Both the position numbers and the translations under genes were made by a program. Of a stretch of DNA of 64,000 bases, positions 3,807-54,345 are shown piece after piece. The notes beneath the pieces were generated by a model. It was not told the DNA's origin. It worked only from the letters and a program-made list of their open reading frames with translations, and did no database searches. Source of the DNA: Lachnospiraceae bacterium (lineage in GTDB: Bacteria; Bacillota; Clostridia; Lachnospirales; Lachnospiraceae); contig JAIKWF010000025.1 of assembly GCA_024685005.1 (NCBI GenBank), forward strand, positions 1-64,000. The letters are read 5' to 3'. Positions within the stretch are counted from its first letter, which is position 1, and each line of letters begins with the position of its first letter.

Positions 3807-6800
3807 ATGAAAAAAAGAACACAGGGACAACTGCATAAAGTAACCGCAATTCTTTTAGCTGCGGCGCTGGTGATGACATCCGTTCCGGCAGAACGTTTTG
3901 TTTTTGCGTCCGAAAACGGGGACAGCAGCACAGCAGGGGCAATCTCTGCATCTGCTCTTATTTCGGCTACCGACTATACCAGTCTGGAAAACGGAAAAGT
4001 GATCTCGGTGCCTGATACAAGCTACAGTCCCTTGTTGGGCGGCTTTTTTTACAGCACGGATAAACGCAAGCTTTATGATCCGGAGGAAGATAAAACCGTT
4101 TCTTTGGATAAGCTGTTTGAGGCGCCGGGACTGGGATCCGTATCCGGCGTAGCAACGCCTTTTATCGAGGATGGCTATCTGGCTGTCAAAAAGCTGTTTT
4201 CCCTGTTTTATTATGATCCGGTAAACAATACGTGGAATAAGATGCGTCCGGCCTGCGCTAAGCAGGTCTATGTGCCGTTGCCTTCGGAAAAGACAGAAGC
4301 GGACGATGTGACCGGAGAAGAAGCAGATCCCCTCAGTGATGTTCTGGCAAAGCTGGAAGAGGGTGAAGATGCTGAAGATGCGGATACCGGCTATGACGAC
4401 ATGGACGAAGAAGACGAAGCGGATGATGCAGACTATGAGGATGACGAAGAAGATGCGGATTCCGAGGCAGATGAAGACGCAGACGATGAGGATCTTTATG
4501 AAGATGATCAGGATGAAGATCTGAGCGATGAGGATGCCGGAGAGGATCTGGCAGAGGACGAAACTGATACAGAAGAAGCAGAGGATTCCGAAAAGGAAAA
4601 GAACAAGGATCCGGAGAAGGAAGTCCTGGATTCCCTGATGCAGGAAGAGTCTGCAAAACACGAATATGTATTTGAAATATCAACAGGTGAAAACGACGGC
4701 CGGAATATCACCTTTTTGAAGCTGTGCTACAACGGCAACAGAAGCGTGTATCTGTTTCCCCGGAAAGGAGACTTTAAACGGGGATTTTTGGCGGCCGACA
4801 AAGAGGAACGGATCCTTTCGGAGATCGCTGATTATGAATCCTATACCGATGTGCATCTGCAGGATCCCTATCAGATGGACAGCAGAGGGCTGCGGAAAAA
4901 TGCCACGGACCAGGTGCTTTTTGAAACCAGAGATGCTATTGAATCGCTGGATGGTGTCCTGTGCTATGCAAAATACGAAGACAAACCCTGCCAGTGGAAT
5001 CTGACAGGTATGAAGCTGTATCGGGTGGACAGCCTTTCGGGTATTGCCATGAGAGGCGGCTATTCCGATTCCTTCTTCATTGACTTTGAGGGAGAATTGT
5101 TAGCTAAGGCTGACTTTAAAAACGAATCTCCCAACATGGGCTGCCAGTTCCAGTGGGAACGGGAGCGGTGCTTTCGGATTTTGCCTGCGGAAACGGAAAA
5201 GCCGGGCAAGTTCAGCAAACTGAAAAACAAAAAGGAAAATGATACCGTCGAAAAGACCATGGAACCCGGCACGGAAGATGATCGGGATGTGGAAGAAAAC
5301 GACAGCGAAGATGCGGATCCGACAGAAGACGGCAGCGGCCTGAAAAAGATTCTGCCGGGATTTGGAAAAGACGGCAGAAATTCCAACGCAGATGTATCCG
5401 GAGAGGAAGATTCCGACGCGGAGGAAGAGGAAGATTACGACGAAGAGGATGAGGATACAGAGGACGAAGACCTTGACGACGAAGAGGAGGATGATGACTC
5501 TTACGACGAAGAGGAGGATGATGACTCTTACGACGAAGAGGACGAAGACGCAGAGGATGAAGACACGGAAGATGAGGTCGAGGACGAGGAAGATACGGAC
5601 GACGGCGAAGACGATGATCTGGATGCCGGTTTAAAATGGGGCGCCACCATCAATCCCGTTAAGGGTTCCTTTACCGGTATTTCCGGTATGCAGACGCAAA
5701 CAGGATCTGAGGATCCTTCCGTAAGCGGGGATCAGGTACAGCCGGATGCACCCCAAAGACTTGGGAAAACCTTTGATGTTAACGATGCCCTGGATTCCCG
5801 GACACAAATGGATGAGGGATACGGCAGCGAAGATGCGACATCGGGCTTTGACAGCAGCACCTACCGGGAAGATACCGGGGACGCGGATACAGAGGAAGCC
5901 ACAGAAGGCACAGACGAAGCAGAAGACGGATCCACGGCAAAAGAAGAGGAACAGAAAGAAAAGAGCGTTCTTCTGGTCTACAAACCGGAAAACAGAGTCA
6001 GCCTGATGACAGAAGGCATCTCTGACAGCGTAAAGCTGTATGCACCGGGAAAAAATGATGTATACGGATTCCGGATCCATTTTGCGGACCAGCCCGGAGG
6101 CGGCCTTGAGAACCTTTCTTACAGAGGCAAAAGATCCCTGAAAGAGGGAGAATATATTGAGAGCATTGCCCTGCGGGTGGAATATACGGATAGATTCGGA
6201 AAGCAGATGAGCATCTGCCTTCCTGCGGTGACCAATTCCCTGAAATGGGCAGTGGACAAGGGGATCGGTCAGCAGCCGGTGGCTTGCGTTGCCCAGGCCG
6301 GACAGGAACTGTATTTTGAAGGCGAGATCCCCGAGTTTTCGGAGCTTCGCCAGATCTGTCTGGTAAACGGCTCTGAAACCGTGGCAAAAGCCTGTGGTCT
6401 CAGCCTGCGGGAAGATGCCACCCCGCTGATGTTAGAACGCAGACAGGAGAGCAATGAAGAGGAAGCATCCCTTAGCAGACTGGCTGTTTATCATCTGGAA
6501 GAAGGGGTTAACATAAAACCTGAAATGGAAGGAAGCATGATAAGCTATGATTATCAGGGTCTTCCCAGGTTTTACAGAAAGTCGGAAACGGAGTTCGGAC
6601 TGCAGATCGCCGCATCGGCTATGACAGGAATCCAGATGCTGCGTCCCAATAAAAATTTCGATTTCTCCCCCGTAGGATGGGGCACCAGGAAGTATCTCAT
6701 CGGAATTACAACCGACAAGGATCAATCAGCCGGGACCTTGTCTCAGCTGAATATGCAGCTAAGTTATGTAAACACACTCGGACAACAGACCAAGTCACCC

Positions 6801-9800
6801 ATATACTCTTTAGCCGAGGAATCCGAAGCCTTTTACGGTGTTTGGAAACAGGACCAGGCCGAGGACGGACAGTTTGGCTACCTGGCAGGGGTTTCCCCGG
6901 GAAATACCCTTTACTTTACTGTGTCTATTCCCGATGCGGACTATTTTACCGCAGCGGATTTCTATCTGAAAGAAGGCAATGATGAGTGGAAAGGCAGCGG
7001 TATTCAGATCTGGGCTTTGGACCAGCTTTCCGGTTTTCAGGGAGACTGGAGCGGTGTATCCGTTACCAATGGTGACAGAGCGCTTAACAGTGACATCCGT
7101 TTCTACAGACAGTTCCAGGGTATCAATATGCTGAATATTGATGACAGCAAGGCCGCCGGCAAAGAGCAGGAGACGGCTCCGGAAGCTGCCATGGAGCAGG
7201 CCGATGTAAGTGAGACATCCTTGCTGCAGGAAGGTGTGCGGGTGGCAGCAAACCACCCCGACGGATTCAGTTTTGTATCCAAAAACATCCGGGAAGTGGA
7301 AGAGGAAGAAGTGGTATCCATCCGGGACGAGATCACCTATGCTGACAGTCTGCAGGACTTCGGATTTGCCAAAAGCCGGAAGAACTATGAAGTGAAGGTA
7401 AAAGTGCGGGATAAGGATCCCGGCATGAATGTGGATACCGATTGCGGTTCCGACAGTGATTTTTACTTCCAGCTGGTATTCGAAAACGGAACCAGCGGAG
7501 TTGTGCTTGCTAACCATCAGTTAGAGGGAGACAGATTCCGCAGTGGTAACACCGAATGCTTTACCATCGGAACCAACAAGGATTTCGGTAAGCTGATCGC
7601 TGTCAGGATCATCCCCCAGGAGCGGCGGGAAGATGAACCGGAGGATAAGCTTTGCATCGATCAGATCCGTGTTACGGAGCAAAGCCAGGCCCCTTACACC
7701 GATACCTGGATCATCGACAATATCCCCGATGACGGCTGGATCAGCGAGCGCATCGTGAAAAATAAGAGACAGCATGAGATTTCCCTTGGCACAGATCAGG
7801 AGGAAAACGAAGCGTCCCGCAAGGCTGCCATTGAGCTGCCGGTACAAAAATCAGCCAACGAGCTGGATTTCCTTGTATGCCTTGCCACCGGAGAATACGG
7901 TGGGAATGCATCCCAGTTTAAGGGCACCATGACCATGCGGGTGGATTATATCGACACCTTCGGGGAGCCTGCATACCGGGAGTTTGACATCGTAGATGCC
8001 ATGTACCGGTATTATGAAAAAGAGCCGGCACAGATCAGCAGCGGCGAGAAAAACGGCGCCGTGGATACGGTTAAAAAGGTTGTCAGTGATGAAAAATACA
8101 TGTTCCGGGGAGAGCATACAGACCGGTTTATCATCAGTCTGGAAAATGTCAGATCCATTTATCAGGCTACTCTCATCGGAGAGAGCATGAATGAAAACTG
8201 CAGACTGCCGGTTTGTGCATTAAGTTTCCAGGTGCTGGAACAGGACGGCGGCCTGAAGCTTTCATCCAACGGTGAATACGTTCATCTTTCCCAGGCAAGA
8301 CTGCTTACATCCGATATGAACCTGCTTACGGGGCAAGAAGATGATGCCATGGTCTTTACCCCGGGAAAAGAGCAGCAGAAGGTGATTGACCTGAAGGCGA
8401 ACGAACTTGCCATGCGAAATGACGGCAGTAAATATCTGTCTGTTCACAGCGAGGATCCCGAGAGCACGGATGATCGTCTGAACATCTATGTTTATCCTAC
8501 GGCGGACAGCCCGGATCTGGATTCCTGGGATCTGTCCTGCAGAGTGGATTATTCCGATATCTGCGGCAATCATTTTTCCGTAAGCGGACAGGCAAAGGAT
8601 GAAGTGATGCAGCGACACAAAGGATCCGGAGAAGACGAGGGAGACTACTTCTACGCAGAAAGTGTATCCGCCAACAGTATTGGCGTGTTGGATATGCTGT
8701 ACCTGAAAAATGCGAATGAATCGGAAACGGCGGGCAAGATCGATCATGCCCTGATCCGCCAGATGCGGGGAGATACTGTTGTCAGGACCTGCTATCTGGA
8801 CGGCTATGAAATGGGCATTGCAGGGATCCTGGGACTGCGTCCCGGCAAAAAGACCTATGTGGGTATCACCGACAGACAGGAGGTTACCCTGCAGCTTTCC
8901 GCAGACACGGCGCCTGCAACGCTGCTGGCAAAAGAAGCAGACCTTGGCGTAAGCTTTACCTACAGATCGCCCATGGATCCTTCCGGGGAGCAGCTGCGCT
9001 CCGCAGTCAGGTATCTGACGGATGAAGAGATCTACCAGATCAGAGCAGGAAAAGTTGTGACTCTGACCTTTAAAGAGCCGTATGTCAGTGAGATCACATC
9101 CCTGCGGATCGTAAATCCCGACGGAAGTCTTTCCGGAAGCGTTGAAAAAGCTTATGCGGTGAACTATCACGTGAGCAGCGAAGATGATACGGCCAGAACG
9201 GAAGACGGCTGGTACAGCTTTGGCAGCGGAGCATCCTTTAGTCCGGAAGGCAGCGATATGCAGCAGACGGGAAGAGAGAGCAGCTCCGACAAGACGGTAG
9301 CACCCCTTAGCATAACCTTCCGCACCGCAGCGCCGAAAGCTACGGAAGAAAGCGGTATCAACGCACCCATATCCATGACCTTGGGTTATGAGGATGCATA
9401 TGGCCATGAGAGTACCTTAAAGGTAAATGATATCAGAACCTATATTACCGACGAAGAGGATCAGAATTTTGACGCCGGAAGCGAAAAGACCATACTTCTT
9501 CTGGCAGAGGGCGTCTCACGGATCACCTACATGGAGCTGAATCCGGCCGCATCGAATACAGGCTATGACGAAGGCTGGAATCTGGAATCTGTCAGCGCAA
9601 AGGTGGGAAGATCAGGTGCTGTCAGCAGAAGGCTCACAGAGCGGATAGAAGCAGGCAAGACCAAACACATCAGCTTCAATACCGTAAAGCTTACCGTGAA
9701 AGCGACTTATCCTTCCAGGACCCAGAATACCAATGAGACAAAGGAAGTAGAAAATGAAAATGCGGACTTTATCATTGCATCCGGAAAGAGCGTGACCTTC

Positions 9801-15518: not shown

Positions 15519-17798
15519 TTGAAGATCAAAAGAGCATTATTGGCAACGCTTACTGCATGTTGCCTTTTACTGATACCGCAAACAGGCGGAAGTTATTTGT
15601 GCATGGCCGCAGAAGAGGGCGGCGAAAGCAAGGTGGAAAAGATCACGATCCGGCCCGGCCCCGATGATGTCAATGTGATCCCCGATAAATACAATACCGG
15701 ATGTAAGGGTACGCTTACTAAATTTGCCGGAACCCAGGGGAAAGAGGAGGTTCATGCAGCAGGCCCGGAGGGGGAAGTGAGCATTTTCCTGAAAAAAAGC
15801 AGTGCCGCGGATACCTATAATATCGACTTTAACGACAACGGTCATTTACCGGAGGAGGTTTTGGTAAAGGATATGGATTTCTCCGCCTTTACCATCAATA
15901 TGCTGCGGGATTCTTTGTCGGACCATTCCGTTACCATCCGGTTTGAGAATTGCAGATTCGGTCGGGTTTCCAAGGATAACTTTGACAGTAAGGTCCTCTT
16001 TTTGTTCGATCACTGCACCATCCGCCGGTTTATCGGCAGTAATGCCATTTTAAACAGGTGTGCCATGGGGGGCAGCAATGAAGATCCTCTGGTACCTTTT
16101 CGCAATGTGGAAGTCGCAGGCTGCTATTTTTCCGATCTGAACTATCCGGATACGGATAAGGTGACCCATATCGACGGCACTCAGATCTATGGCTATCGCT
16201 ATACGGATAGGACCACCGGAGAGGTGAAGGAAGTGGATGTGCAGGATGTGTCCTATGAAAACTGCCGGTTTGAGGTCCCCAACTTCCAGTATAACTTCGA
16301 GAACAAAGCCACGGTCAATTCCTGCATCATGATCCAGTTAGAGTATGCAGACGCTTACAATATCAAAATAAAGGACTGTATCGTAAACGGCGGAGGATAT
16401 ACCATTTTTGCCAGAAGTAAAAAAGGAGACCGGAAGCTAGAGGGCGTCTCCCTGGAGAATGTCAGGGTCGGCGATGCCAAATATTTCGGCGCCATCTATC
16501 CCACCATCGATAAAAAAGTAAGATTCTCCAATCTTTGCGGAACCGACAGCCTCTACATCGGAACGGTGGAAAAGCTGGAAGGTAAAACAACTTTTTCCGT
16601 TACCAACGATACGCGAAAGATCAGGAAGCTGAGAATCCTGACAGATAAGGATACCTATGACTTTGCCATTCCCGCAGGTGCCACCAGAGAGAGTCTGGAT
16701 AAAAAGCATTTTACAAGCTTTTCCCAGCTGCCCGCCGACCGGATCTATACCATCCCGGAGGCCTGCGAGTATGCCATCTGTCTGGATGTGACGGATTCGA
16801 ATAATGTAAAGCAGATCCGCTTTGTAAATTACACTGACGGTGAAGTGGTTGTGGATAAAAGCCAGCTTGGCAATATAGATCCGGATGTGCCCCTTGCGTC
16901 GGGAACCTGCAAGGAAGGGCTGACCTATACCATCAGCAAAGACTATACCCTGACCGTTTCCGGCAACGGCATCATGGAGGATTTCCATTCCGGCAAGCTT
17001 CCCCTCTGGGACGGCTATAAGGATTATGTGAAAAAGGTTGTGGTTGAGGACGGCGTTCAGGGCCTTGGCAATATGGCATTCAGGAACTTTTTCGCACTGG
17101 AGGAAGTTGTGCTGCCGGATTCCTTAAAGCGCATCGGTGCAAGGTGCTTTGCCAACTGCAATACCCTTTCTGTGATCGATATCCCGGAAGGCACCAAGGT
17201 GGAAAAAAATGCCTTTGTAGGCGTGGCAAAGATCATTGTGGAAGATCAGGAAACATCCGACGAAGAAGATGAAGAACTGAAAAAATATCAGGAGCAAAAC
17301 AAAGATCCGGATGAAGACACCCCGGATCCCGCCGGCCCCGGAAAAGATGAAAAGCAAGACAGTAAGCCGGAGGTAACTAAGGGAGAGCCCGGACAAACAC
17401 CGGCAGACCCTTCTGCAGACCATCAAAACAAATCTGTAAAAAAGGGTGATAAGATCACAGACGAAAAGACCGGATTTGTGTATCAGGTGACGAAGGAAGG
17501 TAAGACGCCGACCCTTTCCCTGATCAGGTGCCCGAAAAAGAAAAAGTCGCTGAAAATCAAGAGCAAAATCACCATTGACGGGCAAAAGTATAAAGTGACA
17601 AGCATTGGTAAAAAAGCCTTCAGAAACAATAAGAAGGTGCAAAAGATCACTTTGGAAAAGGGCATCACAAAGGCCGGCAAGGGAGCCTTTAAAGGCTGTA
17701 AGAATTTAAAAAAGGTGATCGCAAAAGACAAGAAGCTGACAAGGAAAAAGCTTTGGTCGGCGGGACTGAAAAAGAGCGTCACTGTATCGAAAAAGTAG
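15519..17798 (+). CDS. Secreted beta-helix plus BspA-type leucine-rich-repeat surface protein with basic C-terminus
   Basis: TTG start after AGGAGGAGAGG; signal peptide MKIKRALLATLTACCLLLIPQTGGSYLCMAA; repeated ENCRF/DHCTI/NRCAM beta-helix rungs; C-terminal IGKKAFRNNKKVQKITLEKGITKAGKGAFKGCKNLKKV. Confidence 0.82.
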   Translation: MKIKRALLATLTACCLLLIPQTGGSYLCMAAEEGGESKVEKITIRPGPDDVNVIPDKYNTGCKGTLTKFAGTQGKEEVHAAGPEGEVSIFLKKSSAADTYNIDFNDNGHLPEEVLVKDMDFSAFTINMLRDSLSDHSVTIRFENCRFGRVSKDNFDSKVLFLFDHCTIRRFIGSNAILNRCAMGGSNEDPLVPFRNVEVAGCYFSDLNYPDTDKVTHIDGTQIYGYRYTDRTTGEVKEVDVQDVSYENCRFEVPNFQYNFENKATVNSCIMIQLEYADAYNIKIKDCIVNGGGYTIFARSKKGDRKLEGVSLENVRVGDAKYFGAIYPTIDKKVRFSNLCGTDSLYIGTVEKLEGKTTFSVTNDTRKIRKLRILTDKDTYDFAIPAGATRESLDKKHFTSFSQLPADRIYTIPEACEYAICLDVTDSNNVKQIRFVNYTDGEVVVDKSQLGNIDPDVPLASGTCKEGLTYTISKDYTLTVSGNGIMEDFHSGKLPLWDGYKDYVKKVVVEDGVQGLGNMAFRNFFALEEVVLPDSLKRIGARCFANCNTLSVIDIPEGTKVEKNAFVGVAKIIVEDQETSDEEDEELKKYQEQNKDPDEDTPDPAGPGKDEKQDSKPEVTKGEPGQTPADPSADHQNKSVKKGDKITDEKTGFVYQVTKEGKTPTLSLIRCPKKKKSLKIKSKITIDGQKYKVTSIGKKAFRNNKKVQKITLEKGITKAGKGAFKGCKNLKKVIAKDKKLTRKKLWSAGLKKSVTVSKK

Positions 17799-17822
17799 TG
17801 AATGAAGGAGTAAAAACAGAAC

Positions 17823-18701
17823 ATGAAAGTAATCAGTAAACAGCATTATTCAGAGGAAAGACCGCTGTTTCGGGAAAAGGGACTTCGGTTGGAAGGCTGC
17901 ACCTTCGATCAGGGGGAATCCCCTTTGAAAGAAGCCTGCAGCATTACCATGGAAGGGGGGGCATTTCAATGGAAATACCCCCTTTGGTATGCAAAAAACA
18001 TTCAGGTGAAGGGAACGTATTTTGCAGAAAATGCAAGAGCGGGGATCTGGTACACGGATCAGATCGAGCTGTCGGATCTGATCATCGATGCGCCCAAAAC
18101 CTTCCGCCGCTGCAACGGGATCCGGCTGAACAATATTAAGATGCCAAATGCCGCAGAGACTCTCTGGTATAACAGAGATGTAGAACTTGAAAATGTGGAA
18201 GCTACAGGGGATTATTTTGCCATGGGTACGGAAAACATCCGGGTGAAGAATCTTTTGCTGAACGGAAATTACAGCTTTGACGGCTGCAAAAATGTGGAGA
18301 TCACGGATTCAAAGCTTTTGTCCAAGGACTGTGTCTGGAACTGCGAAAATGTTCTGATCAAAAACTCCTATATTGAAGGGGAGTATCTGGGGTGGAATTC
18401 CAAAAACGTAACACTGCAGGACTGCACCATAAAGAGTCTGCAGGGAATGTGTTATGTGGAGAATCTCAAAGTGATCAACTGCCGGCTGGAAGGCACCAGC
18501 CTTGCCTTTGAATTTGCAACGGTTCAGGCGCAGATCACAGACTCTGTCGACAGCGTGATGAACCCCATAGCCGGAACCATTACGGCGCCTTTGATCAAAA
18601 AGCTGATTATGGACCCTGCCCAGGTGGATCCGGCAAAGACCACGATCAACGCGGAGGTTGCGGAAAGGCTTGATCGATTTGACGGGATCATACCGGATTA
18701 G
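17823..18701 (+). CDS. DUF3737 family protein (right-handed beta-helix)
   Basis: Sequence KVISKQHYSEERPLFREKGLRLEGCTFDQGESPLKEA...WKYPLWYAKNIQVKGTYF...ARAGIWYTDQI is characteristic of DUF3737. Confidence 0.85.
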   Translation: MKVISKQHYSEERPLFREKGLRLEGCTFDQGESPLKEACSITMEGGAFQWKYPLWYAKNIQVKGTYFAENARAGIWYTDQIELSDLIIDAPKTFRRCNGIRLNNIKMPNAAETLWYNRDVELENVEATGDYFAMGTENIRVKNLLLNGNYSFDGCKNVEITDSKLLSKDCVWNCENVLIKNSYIEGEYLGWNSKNVTLQDCTIKSLQGMCYVENLKVINCRLEGTSLAFEFATVQAQITDSVDSVMNPIAGTITAPLIKKLIMDPAQVDPAKTTINAEVAERLDRFDGIIPD

Positions 18702-52322: not shown

Positions 52323-52343
52323 TTTACCACAAAATGTGGTAAA
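52323..52343. promoter_or_regulatory. 9-bp inverted repeat TTTACCACA-AAA-TGTGGTAAA upstream of the FHA gene (candidate operator)
   Basis: Perfect arms about 55 bp before the FHA start. Confidence 0.5.
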
Positions 52344-52396
52344 ATGATGAGCGAAAATGTTCGGCATAGAATGGCTATGTATTTGGGAGGAAAAAC

Positions 52397-52960
52397 ATGA
52401 GACTCGAAGAAGGGGTACTGCGAATTTTAACGGGAGAATGCGCAGGAGATGAGTACCATTTTGAAGACGGCGAGATCCTGACCATCGGCAGGGATCCCCA
52501 GTCTGATATTTTGTTGCCCGACAGTTATAAGCACGTCAGCAGGAAGCATTGTTCCGTAGCCTATGACGGCATCAGACATCGTTTCTTTATCACGGACACT
52601 TCTTCCGGCGGAATTTACAATGAGAGCTGGCAGAGATTTCGTATGCAGGGATTTATTTCCGAAAGCTGCAAGATGTATTTCCCCAATGAAGAATGTACGA
52701 TTGAGTTTTTCAATATAGATGAAGACGGGAAGCGGATCCCGGCTAAAAAGAGCAATGCTGCAAAAGAACAAAAGGAACCTGTAAAACCTGCCAAAAAGCA
52801 GGCTGTTTCTGATGAAGATCAGCAGGAGCCCAAAAGCAATGTGAAAAAAGCAGCAGGGAAAAAAGCTGAAAAGAGCAAGGCAGACAAGCCTGCAAAAGAA
52901 GAAAGCAACAAAACCGCCGACGGCGCAAAAGCCGACGGGGGTAAAAAAAAACCTCTGTAA
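52397..52960 (+). CDS. FHA-domain protein with Lys/Ala-rich linker; possible N-terminal half of an FHA-TM-GH3 protein
   Basis: RBS TTGGGAGGAAAAAC; ILTIGRDPQSDILLPDSYKHVSRKHCSVAY is a canonical FHA core; ORF stops 7 nt after an A9 run (52943-52951). Confidence 0.92.
   Translation: MRLEEGVLRILTGECAGDEYHFEDGEILTIGRDPQSDILLPDSYKHVSRKHCSVAYDGIRHRFFITDTSSGGIYNESWQRFRMQGFISESCKMYFPNEECTIEFFNIDEDGKRIPAKKSNAAKEQKEPVKPAKKQAVSDEDQQEPKSNVKKAAGKKAEKSKADKPAKEESNKTADGAKADGGKKKPL
52943..52951 (+). other. A9 homopolymer at the FHA/GH3 frame junction (candidate -1 slippage site)
   Basis: Frame 0 GGT AAA AAA AAA CCT CTG TAA; a -1 shift gives AAA ACC TCT GTA AGT AAG AAA AAG AAC AGA TGG ATC AAG CAA AAA ATG GTC, open into GH3. 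Confidence 0.7.
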
Positions 52961-52992
52961 GTAAGAAAAAGAACAGATGGATCAAGCAAAAA

Positions 52993-54345
52993 ATGGTCAG
53001 CCTGGCTGCGATTGCGGCCGGGCTGCTTGTGATTGCAGGGCTGGGATTCTTGGTTTCCCTGTTTCTGAAGGGAAGCCTTTCCGGCGGTCAAAAAACAGCG
53101 GCAGGCACATCGGCCCAGGAGGCTACATTGCAAAATACGCAAGGTGATGTCAGCGATGGGGATGAGACAGATCCCGGCGCAGATTCAGGTGCATTACCCG
53201 GCACAGGAGATGGTGATCAGTTCGATGCGCCATCTTCATCCGGGGACAATGGCGGGATCGGCGAAGACCTTGATGCGGCAGGATCGCAGCAGATCGATCC
53301 GGAAACGGAAGCAAAAATCGATGGCCTGCTTTCCTCCTTATCCGTGGAACAAAAGGCGGCCCAGCTTTTCTTCATTACGCCGGAGCAGCTGACAGGAGTG
53401 GAACAGGTAACGGCAGCGGGAGAGATGACCAAAGCCGCATATGAGAAAAACCCGGTGGGAGGACTGATCTACTTTGCATCGAATTTCGAAGATCCGGATC
53501 AGACAAAGGAGATGCTGAAAAACATGCAGACCTATGCCACCCAGGCCACGGGAGGGATTCCTGTATTTCTGGGTGTAGACGAGGAAGGCGGAAAAGTGGA
53601 GCGGATCGCTTCCAATCCTGCCTTTGGCATCACATCTGCCGGCAGCGCAGCGGAGCATCAAAGTGAGCAGGATGCCAAAGCTGCGGGAGAAAAGATCGGG
53701 GAATATCTGAAGGAATACGGACTGAATGTGGATTTTGCCCCGGTGGCAGATGTGCTTTCCAATCCTGAGAATTCCGTTATCGGCCCCCGCTCCTTCGGGG
53801 AGGATCCGGAGCAGGTGAAAACGTTAGCAAAAGCTTACTCAGACGGCCTGCATGCAGCGGGTATCAAAAGCACCTATAAACATTTCCCCGGACATGGGGC
53901 AACAAAGGACGATACCCATGAGGGAACGGCTTATACGGATAAGAGTAAAGAAGAACTGGCTGCCTGTGACCTGATCCCTTTTGCGGATGCACAGACGGCA
54001 GGAACGGATTTCGTGATGGTATCCCACATAACGCTGCCCACCGTATTGGAAGATGATACCCCATGCTCCCTTTCGGAGAAGATGATCACAGGGTGCCTTA
54101 GAAACGAATTGGGCTATCAGGGGATCGTTATCACCGATTCCTTTACCATGGGAGCCATTACCCAGCATTACAGCGCAGGAGATGCCGCTGTTAAGGCAAT
54201 CCTGGCGGGCGCAGACATGATCCTTATGCCGGAAGACTATGAGACCGCATATCAGGCAGTTCTTTCGGCCTGCAAAAACGGTCAGATCCCGGAGGCCAGA
54301 TTGAATGAGGCACTGAGACACATTCTCAGGTGCAAGTTGACATAA
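52993..54345 (+). CDS. GH3 beta-N-acetylhexosaminidase (NagZ-like), N-terminal TM; possibly the C-terminal half of the FHA fusion
   Basis: N-terminal TM AAIAAGLLVIAGLGFLVSLFL; FLGVDEEGGKVERI; KHFPGHGATKDDTHEGT (NagZ D-H dyad); VITDSFTMGAI. No ribosome-binding site before the ATG at 52993. Confidence 0.93.
   Translation: MVSLAAIAAGLLVIAGLGFLVSLFLKGSLSGGQKTAAGTSAQEATLQNTQGDVSDGDETDPGADSGALPGTGDGDQFDAPSSSGDNGGIGEDLDAAGSQQIDPETEAKIDGLLSSLSVEQKAAQLFFITPEQLTGVEQVTAAGEMTKAAYEKNPVGGLIYFASNFEDPDQTKEMLKNMQTYATQATGGIPVFLGVDEEGGKVERIASNPAFGITSAGSAAEHQSEQDAKAAGEKIGEYLKEYGLNVDFAPVADVLSNPENSVIGPRSFGEDPEQVKTLAKAYSDGLHAAGIKSTYKHFPGHGATKDDTHEGTAYTDKSKEELAACDLIPFADAQTAGTDFVMVSHITLPTVLEDDTPCSLSEKMITGCLRNELGYQGIVITDSFTMGAITQHYSAGDAAVKAILAGADMILMPEDYETAYQAVLSACKNGQIPEARLNEALRHILRCKLT

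Follow-up and report, generated by a model that had tools for sequence, protein, structure and literature searches.

A possible FHA-membrane-glycosidase fusion across a run of nine adenines in a Lachnospiraceae genome

The window analysed here, a 64,000-nucleotide stretch of contig JAIKWF010000025.1 (assembly GCA_024685005.1, Lachnospiraceae bacterium), carries, in order, infB, rbfA, nrnA, truB, ribF, an HI0933-type flavoprotein gene, an FHA open reading frame (ORF), a GH3 ORF, and genes for a GNAT protein, a Na/Pi cotransporter, and an acyl-CoA synthetase. The coding features described below all lie on the forward strand. The FHA ORF (187 aa, 52397-52960) ends GGT AAA AAA AAA CCT CTG TAA, with a run of nine adenines (A9) at 52943-52951 and the stop codon at 52958-52960. 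The GH3 ORF (450 aa, from ATG 52993 to 54345) is in the -1 frame relative to it. This frame opens at 52945, directly after an in-frame TAA (52942-52944), and a sequence scan found no ATG, GTG, or TTG in it from there to ATG 52993. A junction between the two frames is possible only within about 13 nt (52945-52957), most of which is filled by the A9 run, and one A added to this run puts FHA and GH3 in a single frame, with a joined product of 649 aa. The original prediction had placed the end of the FHA ORF, the A run, and the stop at these positions, with the -1 frame open from the run through a transmembrane (TM) segment into GH3, and both points are borne out.

The two ORFs differ in their initiation signals. 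The FHA ORF is preceded by the Shine-Dalgarno sequence GGGAGG (52385-52390, duplex energy of -10.2 kcal/mol), whereas ATG 52993 has none, as had been predicted (-4.5 kcal/mol, versus a random median of -4.3). Nevertheless, truB, in the same window, scores no better (-4.1), and the missing Shine-Dalgarno is, therefore, a weak argument when taken alone. Further 5' of the FHA ORF lies an inverted repeat, TTTACCACA-AAA-TGTGGTAAA (52323-52343), with 9-nt arms that are 100% complementary and a 3-nt spacer. A whole-genome pattern search allowing up to 3 mismatches returned this single copy. It constitutes a putative operator, which perhaps arrived with the FHA segment.

The FHA domain occupies residues 1-115 (52397-52741) and is recognized both by profile (PF00498, 35.2 bits, Pfam cut-off 20.7) and by structure. 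In the AlphaFold model these residues form a complete FHA fold, with a pLDDT mostly above 90, and Foldseek matches the ORF to FHA structures including CT664 (3gqs), GarA, YscD, and 3oun (E ~1e-7), with TM-scores by target of 0.7-0.85 for FHA structures. The best relatives share about 30-40% identity, and in most of them the domain lies C-terminally within another kind of protein. Assignment to TagH, the type VI FHA protein, was rejected (41 bits versus a cut-off of 120). Regarding the phosphothreonine-contact residues, the Arg of GRD and the Ser of SRKH are present, and the usual SNGT loop reads SGGI. As its Asn is replaced by Gly, phosphothreonine binding by this domain is uncertain. The domain is followed by a Lys/Ala/Glu-rich linker (52742-52942), predicted to be disordered (pLDDT of 50-60).

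NagZ-type enzymes are characterized by a KH(F)PGHG...D(S/T)H acid/base motif and a TD nucleophile. The GH3 catalytic domain of the window (53347-54330; PF00933, 278 bits, cut-off 27) bears the motifs KHFPGHG, DDTH, and ITDS intact, and the motif residues (KHFPGHGATKDDTH and ITDS) are invariant in an alignment with its relatives. Because its score for PRK05337, the NCBIfam equivalog for beta-N-acetylhexosaminidase, falls under the cut-off (192.5 versus 207 bits), it is named here NagZ-like rather than NagZ. Its relatives in the PDB are 6k5j and 3bmx. The latter is Bacillus subtilis YbbD, which shares the GH3 catalytic domain with NagZ-type motifs, but is named a lipoprotein and has a chain that is longer at the C-terminus. 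Upstream of the catalytic domain lies a single TM segment (53011-53067, hydropathy of 2.59 over 19 residues), corresponding to residues 206-224 of the joined protein. As a strongly positive segment stands just before it, the joined protein is predicted to have its FHA domain inside the cell and its GH3 domain outside. A product begun at Met52993 (MVSLAAIAAG) carries no positive charge before the TM segment.

Comparison with genus-mates bears on where GH3 translation starts. One of them (G005) has the same gene order without the FHA ORF, GH3 directly following the HI0933-type flavoprotein gene, and in two others (G001 and G004) the genes for GNAT and the cotransporter lie close to GH3, in a different arrangement. 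From the one syntenic comparison, with G005, the FHA segment appears to have been inserted in this lineage. The GH3 N-terminus is MKKKNRWKRQK, then FIS, before the TM segment in G005, and reads MKKNNRYKRQMLIS in G001 and MKKHNRYRQQMLIS in G004. Just past the A run, the GH3 frame of the window reads VS-KKKNRWIKQK-MVS. The positively charged segment KKKNRWIKQK (52963-52992) is identical to that of G005 at 8 of its 10 positions, a match reached by only 3 of 100,000 same-residue shuffles (p ~3e-5). In the alignment with the three genus-mates, the position of the relatives' ATG start is occupied by AGT (Ser, 52960-52962), and Met52993 aligns at or beside a Met that is internal in G001 and G004. Since the ATG has become AGT and Met52993 is internal in the relatives, the pre-TM segment would be translatable only via the FHA ORF and a one-base shift. 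The simplest reading of these alignments is, thus, that GH3 has lost its ancestral start, and that translation through the FHA ORF would still include the conserved charged segment.

The fusion was searched for at increasing phylogenetic distance. Screening 155 GH3 loci with the FHA profile on both strands, many of these loci having short flanks, revealed no FHA domain beside a homologous GH3. No single-ORF FHA-TM-GH3 homologue was found within the genus, no fused FHA-GH3 frame among the matches listed from FHA and GH3 searches of 397 genomes of the family, and no fusion among the matches listed when 395 genomes of the order were searched with the joined protein. The search for a single-ORF homologue that had been recommended with the original prediction has, therefore, yielded no such protein in the genomes sampled. 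Finding the homologues consistently split into two unlinked genes had also been put forward as evidence against a fusion, an argument that is inapplicable here, the relatives having no FHA partner at GH3. Other Lachnospiraceae TM-GH3 homologues are likewise anchored by an N-terminal TM segment and carry a variable stalk, with their own start and no FHA domain, and the long GH3 ORFs that were inspected (at loci L175, L185, L036, L076, L078, L104, and others) bear other extensions. A literature search for FHA domains fused to glycosidases brought up nothing relevant among the papers listed.

The cytosolic extensions of GH3 homologues differ greatly between species. For example, the homologue at L104 (3386-5041) has a very acidic N-terminal extension of about 100 residues, made of ED repeats, before its TM segment.

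A PASTA-type Ser/Thr kinase is also encoded in this genome, as are other FHA proteins. At another locus (L172, G000:C4:90000-109900), two proteins combining a trypsin-like peptidase with FHA (6193-7698 and 16562-18343) are encoded near a Ser/Thr kinase and a 1654-aa FtsK/SpoIIIE-FHA protein that is EssC-like. The 594-aa member of this pair of peptidase-FHA proteins contains, in one ORF, a signal peptide, a trypsin-like domain, a TM segment, and an FHA domain that is cytosolic according to the topology predicted from hydropathy. By this prediction, an external enzyme linked through a TM segment to a cytosolic FHA domain is an architecture used elsewhere by this organism. The joined protein also resembles YscD/Yop-YscD_cpl proteins, in which a cytosolic FHA domain, one TM segment, and an external domain are likewise combined. 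The external domain is an enzyme in the peptidase protein too, although the external partners of the YscD-type and peptidase proteins differ from GH3, and the peptidase protein is unlike the joined FHA-GH3 in that its FHA domain is C-terminal and the whole is a single ORF.

The A9 run can be set against the rest of the genome. Counting by pattern search and in inspected stretches, with expectations from a first-order Markov model, gave 11 A/T runs of nine on both strands of the 2.94-Mb genome, every one exactly nine long. As about 70 runs of at least nine are expected, such runs appear to be avoided; about 21 runs of at least ten are expected, and none occurs among the A9 sites. The other A9 runs that lie within long ORFs are crossed by an open frame. 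Because the linker is Lys-rich and biased towards AAA (12 of its 18 Lys codons outside the run), the chance of KKK being written as A9 is near 0.3, and the run is not improbable by itself.

Several ways of shifting frame at such a run can be considered. The heptamer A_AAA_AAA (52945-52951), in the FHA frame, conforms to the X_XXY_YYZ pattern of -1 slippery sites. The canonical -1 stimulators were, nevertheless, not found in place. A strong 12-bp hairpin in the TM-coding sequence (52998-53025, without a T run; z of -4.2 for the surrounding 79 nt) is wrongly positioned, 46 nt downstream, and no Shine-Dalgarno-like stimulator was found about 10 nt upstream of the run, GGGGG ending at the run itself. 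By RNA folding, the A run falls within the loop of a hairpin (z of -2.3), and a weak stem abuts it. Programmed -1 ribosomal frameshifting was, therefore, ranked as second choice, its stimulators lacking proper placement. Ribosome sliding on AAA codons was also considered, but nine A's are marginal, eleven having been needed for robust sliding in an E. coli cell-free system (PMC4363877).

Transcriptional slippage, which had been listed among the possible mechanisms together with programmed frameshifting and an assembly indel, fits both the length of the run and the direction of the shift. In many bacterial genomes, selection against slippage becomes visible in A/T runs of nine, and slippage takes place at an A9 run in Thermus dnaX (PMC1088944). 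Genome-wide, in E. coli and Buchnera, most transcriptional insertions in A/T runs add a single base, and insertions become exponentially more frequent as the run lengthens (PMC5574713), and the A11 run of Citrobacter tssM yields about 20-25% shifting (PMC4256274). As in Thermus thermophilus dnaX and Citrobacter rodentium tssM, where an A run near the stop of one frame gives mRNAs with and without an extra A and two protein lengths (PMC1088944, PMC4256274), the run in the window lies close to the stop of the FHA frame. The likeness has its limits, as the tssM run counts eleven A's versus nine here, and in dnaX the short form results from the added A, whereas in the present case the long form would. 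Furthermore, the shift considered here would couple an enzyme anchored in the membrane to a cytosolic FHA domain, and the candidate is known from one genome, no relative with the fusion having been found among the genomes searched.

Overall, it is probable that GH3 is made as an FHA-TM-GH3 protein, be it through slippage or from DNA with ten A's. The fusion that had been proposed, of FHA domain, Lys-rich linker, TM segment, and external GH3, is strongly supported by the conserved N-terminal segment and the lost start; the mechanism behind it is one that we infer. Recoding at A9 is the likeliest single mechanism, close to an even call when taken by itself, and next comes a missing A, an appreciably less probable explanation, according to which the true DNA has ten A's, or is a mixed population, and encodes an ordinary single-ORF FHA-TM-GH3 protein, as a result of assembly or sequencing error or of strain polymorphism. 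This explains all the comparative evidence for a fusion equally well, without any recoding; homopolymers are the usual sites of indel errors, and the genome is a draft in 134 contigs. On the other hand, the A10 run would be the only one of at least ten in the genome, and the other A9 runs within long ORFs are spanned by an open frame. The nine neighbouring genes that can be aligned to G005 (infB, rbfA, nrnA, truB, ribF, and those for the HI0933-type flavoprotein, GNAT, NaPi, and ACS) are unbroken, and there is thus no sign of local base errors, a mild argument against a general base-calling fault.

The conserved charged segment weighs against the view that two separate proteins are made, with the FHA ORF giving a soluble product of 187 aa and GH3 one of 450 aa, whose translation would begin at ATG 52993, 32 nt past the FHA stop, through coupling or reinitiation. 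The TM segment directly follows this ATG, and coupled genes may lack a good Shine-Dalgarno, as truB does, but KKKNRWIKQK would then stay untranslated, the start would be a Met that is internal in relatives and has no Shine-Dalgarno, and the N-terminus MVSLAAIAAG would be without positive charge, unlike those of four aligned genus-mates; this explanation is judged improbable. Even less credit is given to a fixed or phase-variable frameshift, with A9 either representing the off position of a switch driven by replication slippage or marking the onset of gene decay. Phase-variable genes typically have a homopolymer beside a stop, and few A/T runs in the genome are this long, but GH3 shows no decay, its motifs being invariant and its frame intact.

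The preferred reading, held tentatively and at nearly even confidence, is that the FHA and GH3 ORFs form one gene, and that GH3 would probably be produced only from transcripts with one A added at the A9 run. An FHA domain and its Lys-rich linker would have been placed between the HI0933-type flavoprotein gene and an ancestral TM-anchored NagZ-like GH3, whose ATG start then became AGT, leaving GH3 dependent on the FHA start. Most transcripts would keep nine A's and yield the soluble 187-aa FHA protein, while RNA polymerase, by adding one A, would give the 649-aa protein, with a cytosolic FHA domain, a positive-inside TM segment, and a putative extracellular beta-N-acetylhexosaminidase. The A9 run would thereby set the ratio between free FHA and membrane FHA-glycosidase. 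The FHA domain might bind Thr-phosphorylated partners, for example those of the PASTA kinase, so that the enzyme would be placed at sites of wall growth. That Thr-phosphorylation steers an extracellular wall hydrolase through a slippage-set switch, tempered by a decoy FHA protein from the same gene, is a speculative extension and, on present evidence, rather unlikely.

In mycobacteria, FhaA, MurJ (Rv3910), CwlM, and PknB provide a system in which the reading of PASTA-kinase phosphorylation by FHA domains is tied to the wall. There, the FHA domain and the wall factor reside on different proteins, whereas the proposed fusion would hold both in one chain. What would be new is the domain combination, and the locus is a candidate new example of an already known type of recoding. 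It also shows that gene callers would split such genes and assign a false start to GH3. If the proposed fusion is true, a single chain would link the reading of Ser/Thr phosphorylation inside the cell to a glycosidase outside, possibly as an output of PASTA-kinase wall signalling, and recoding at nine A's would allow one gene to produce a signalling protein as well as a form of it that is a membrane enzyme.
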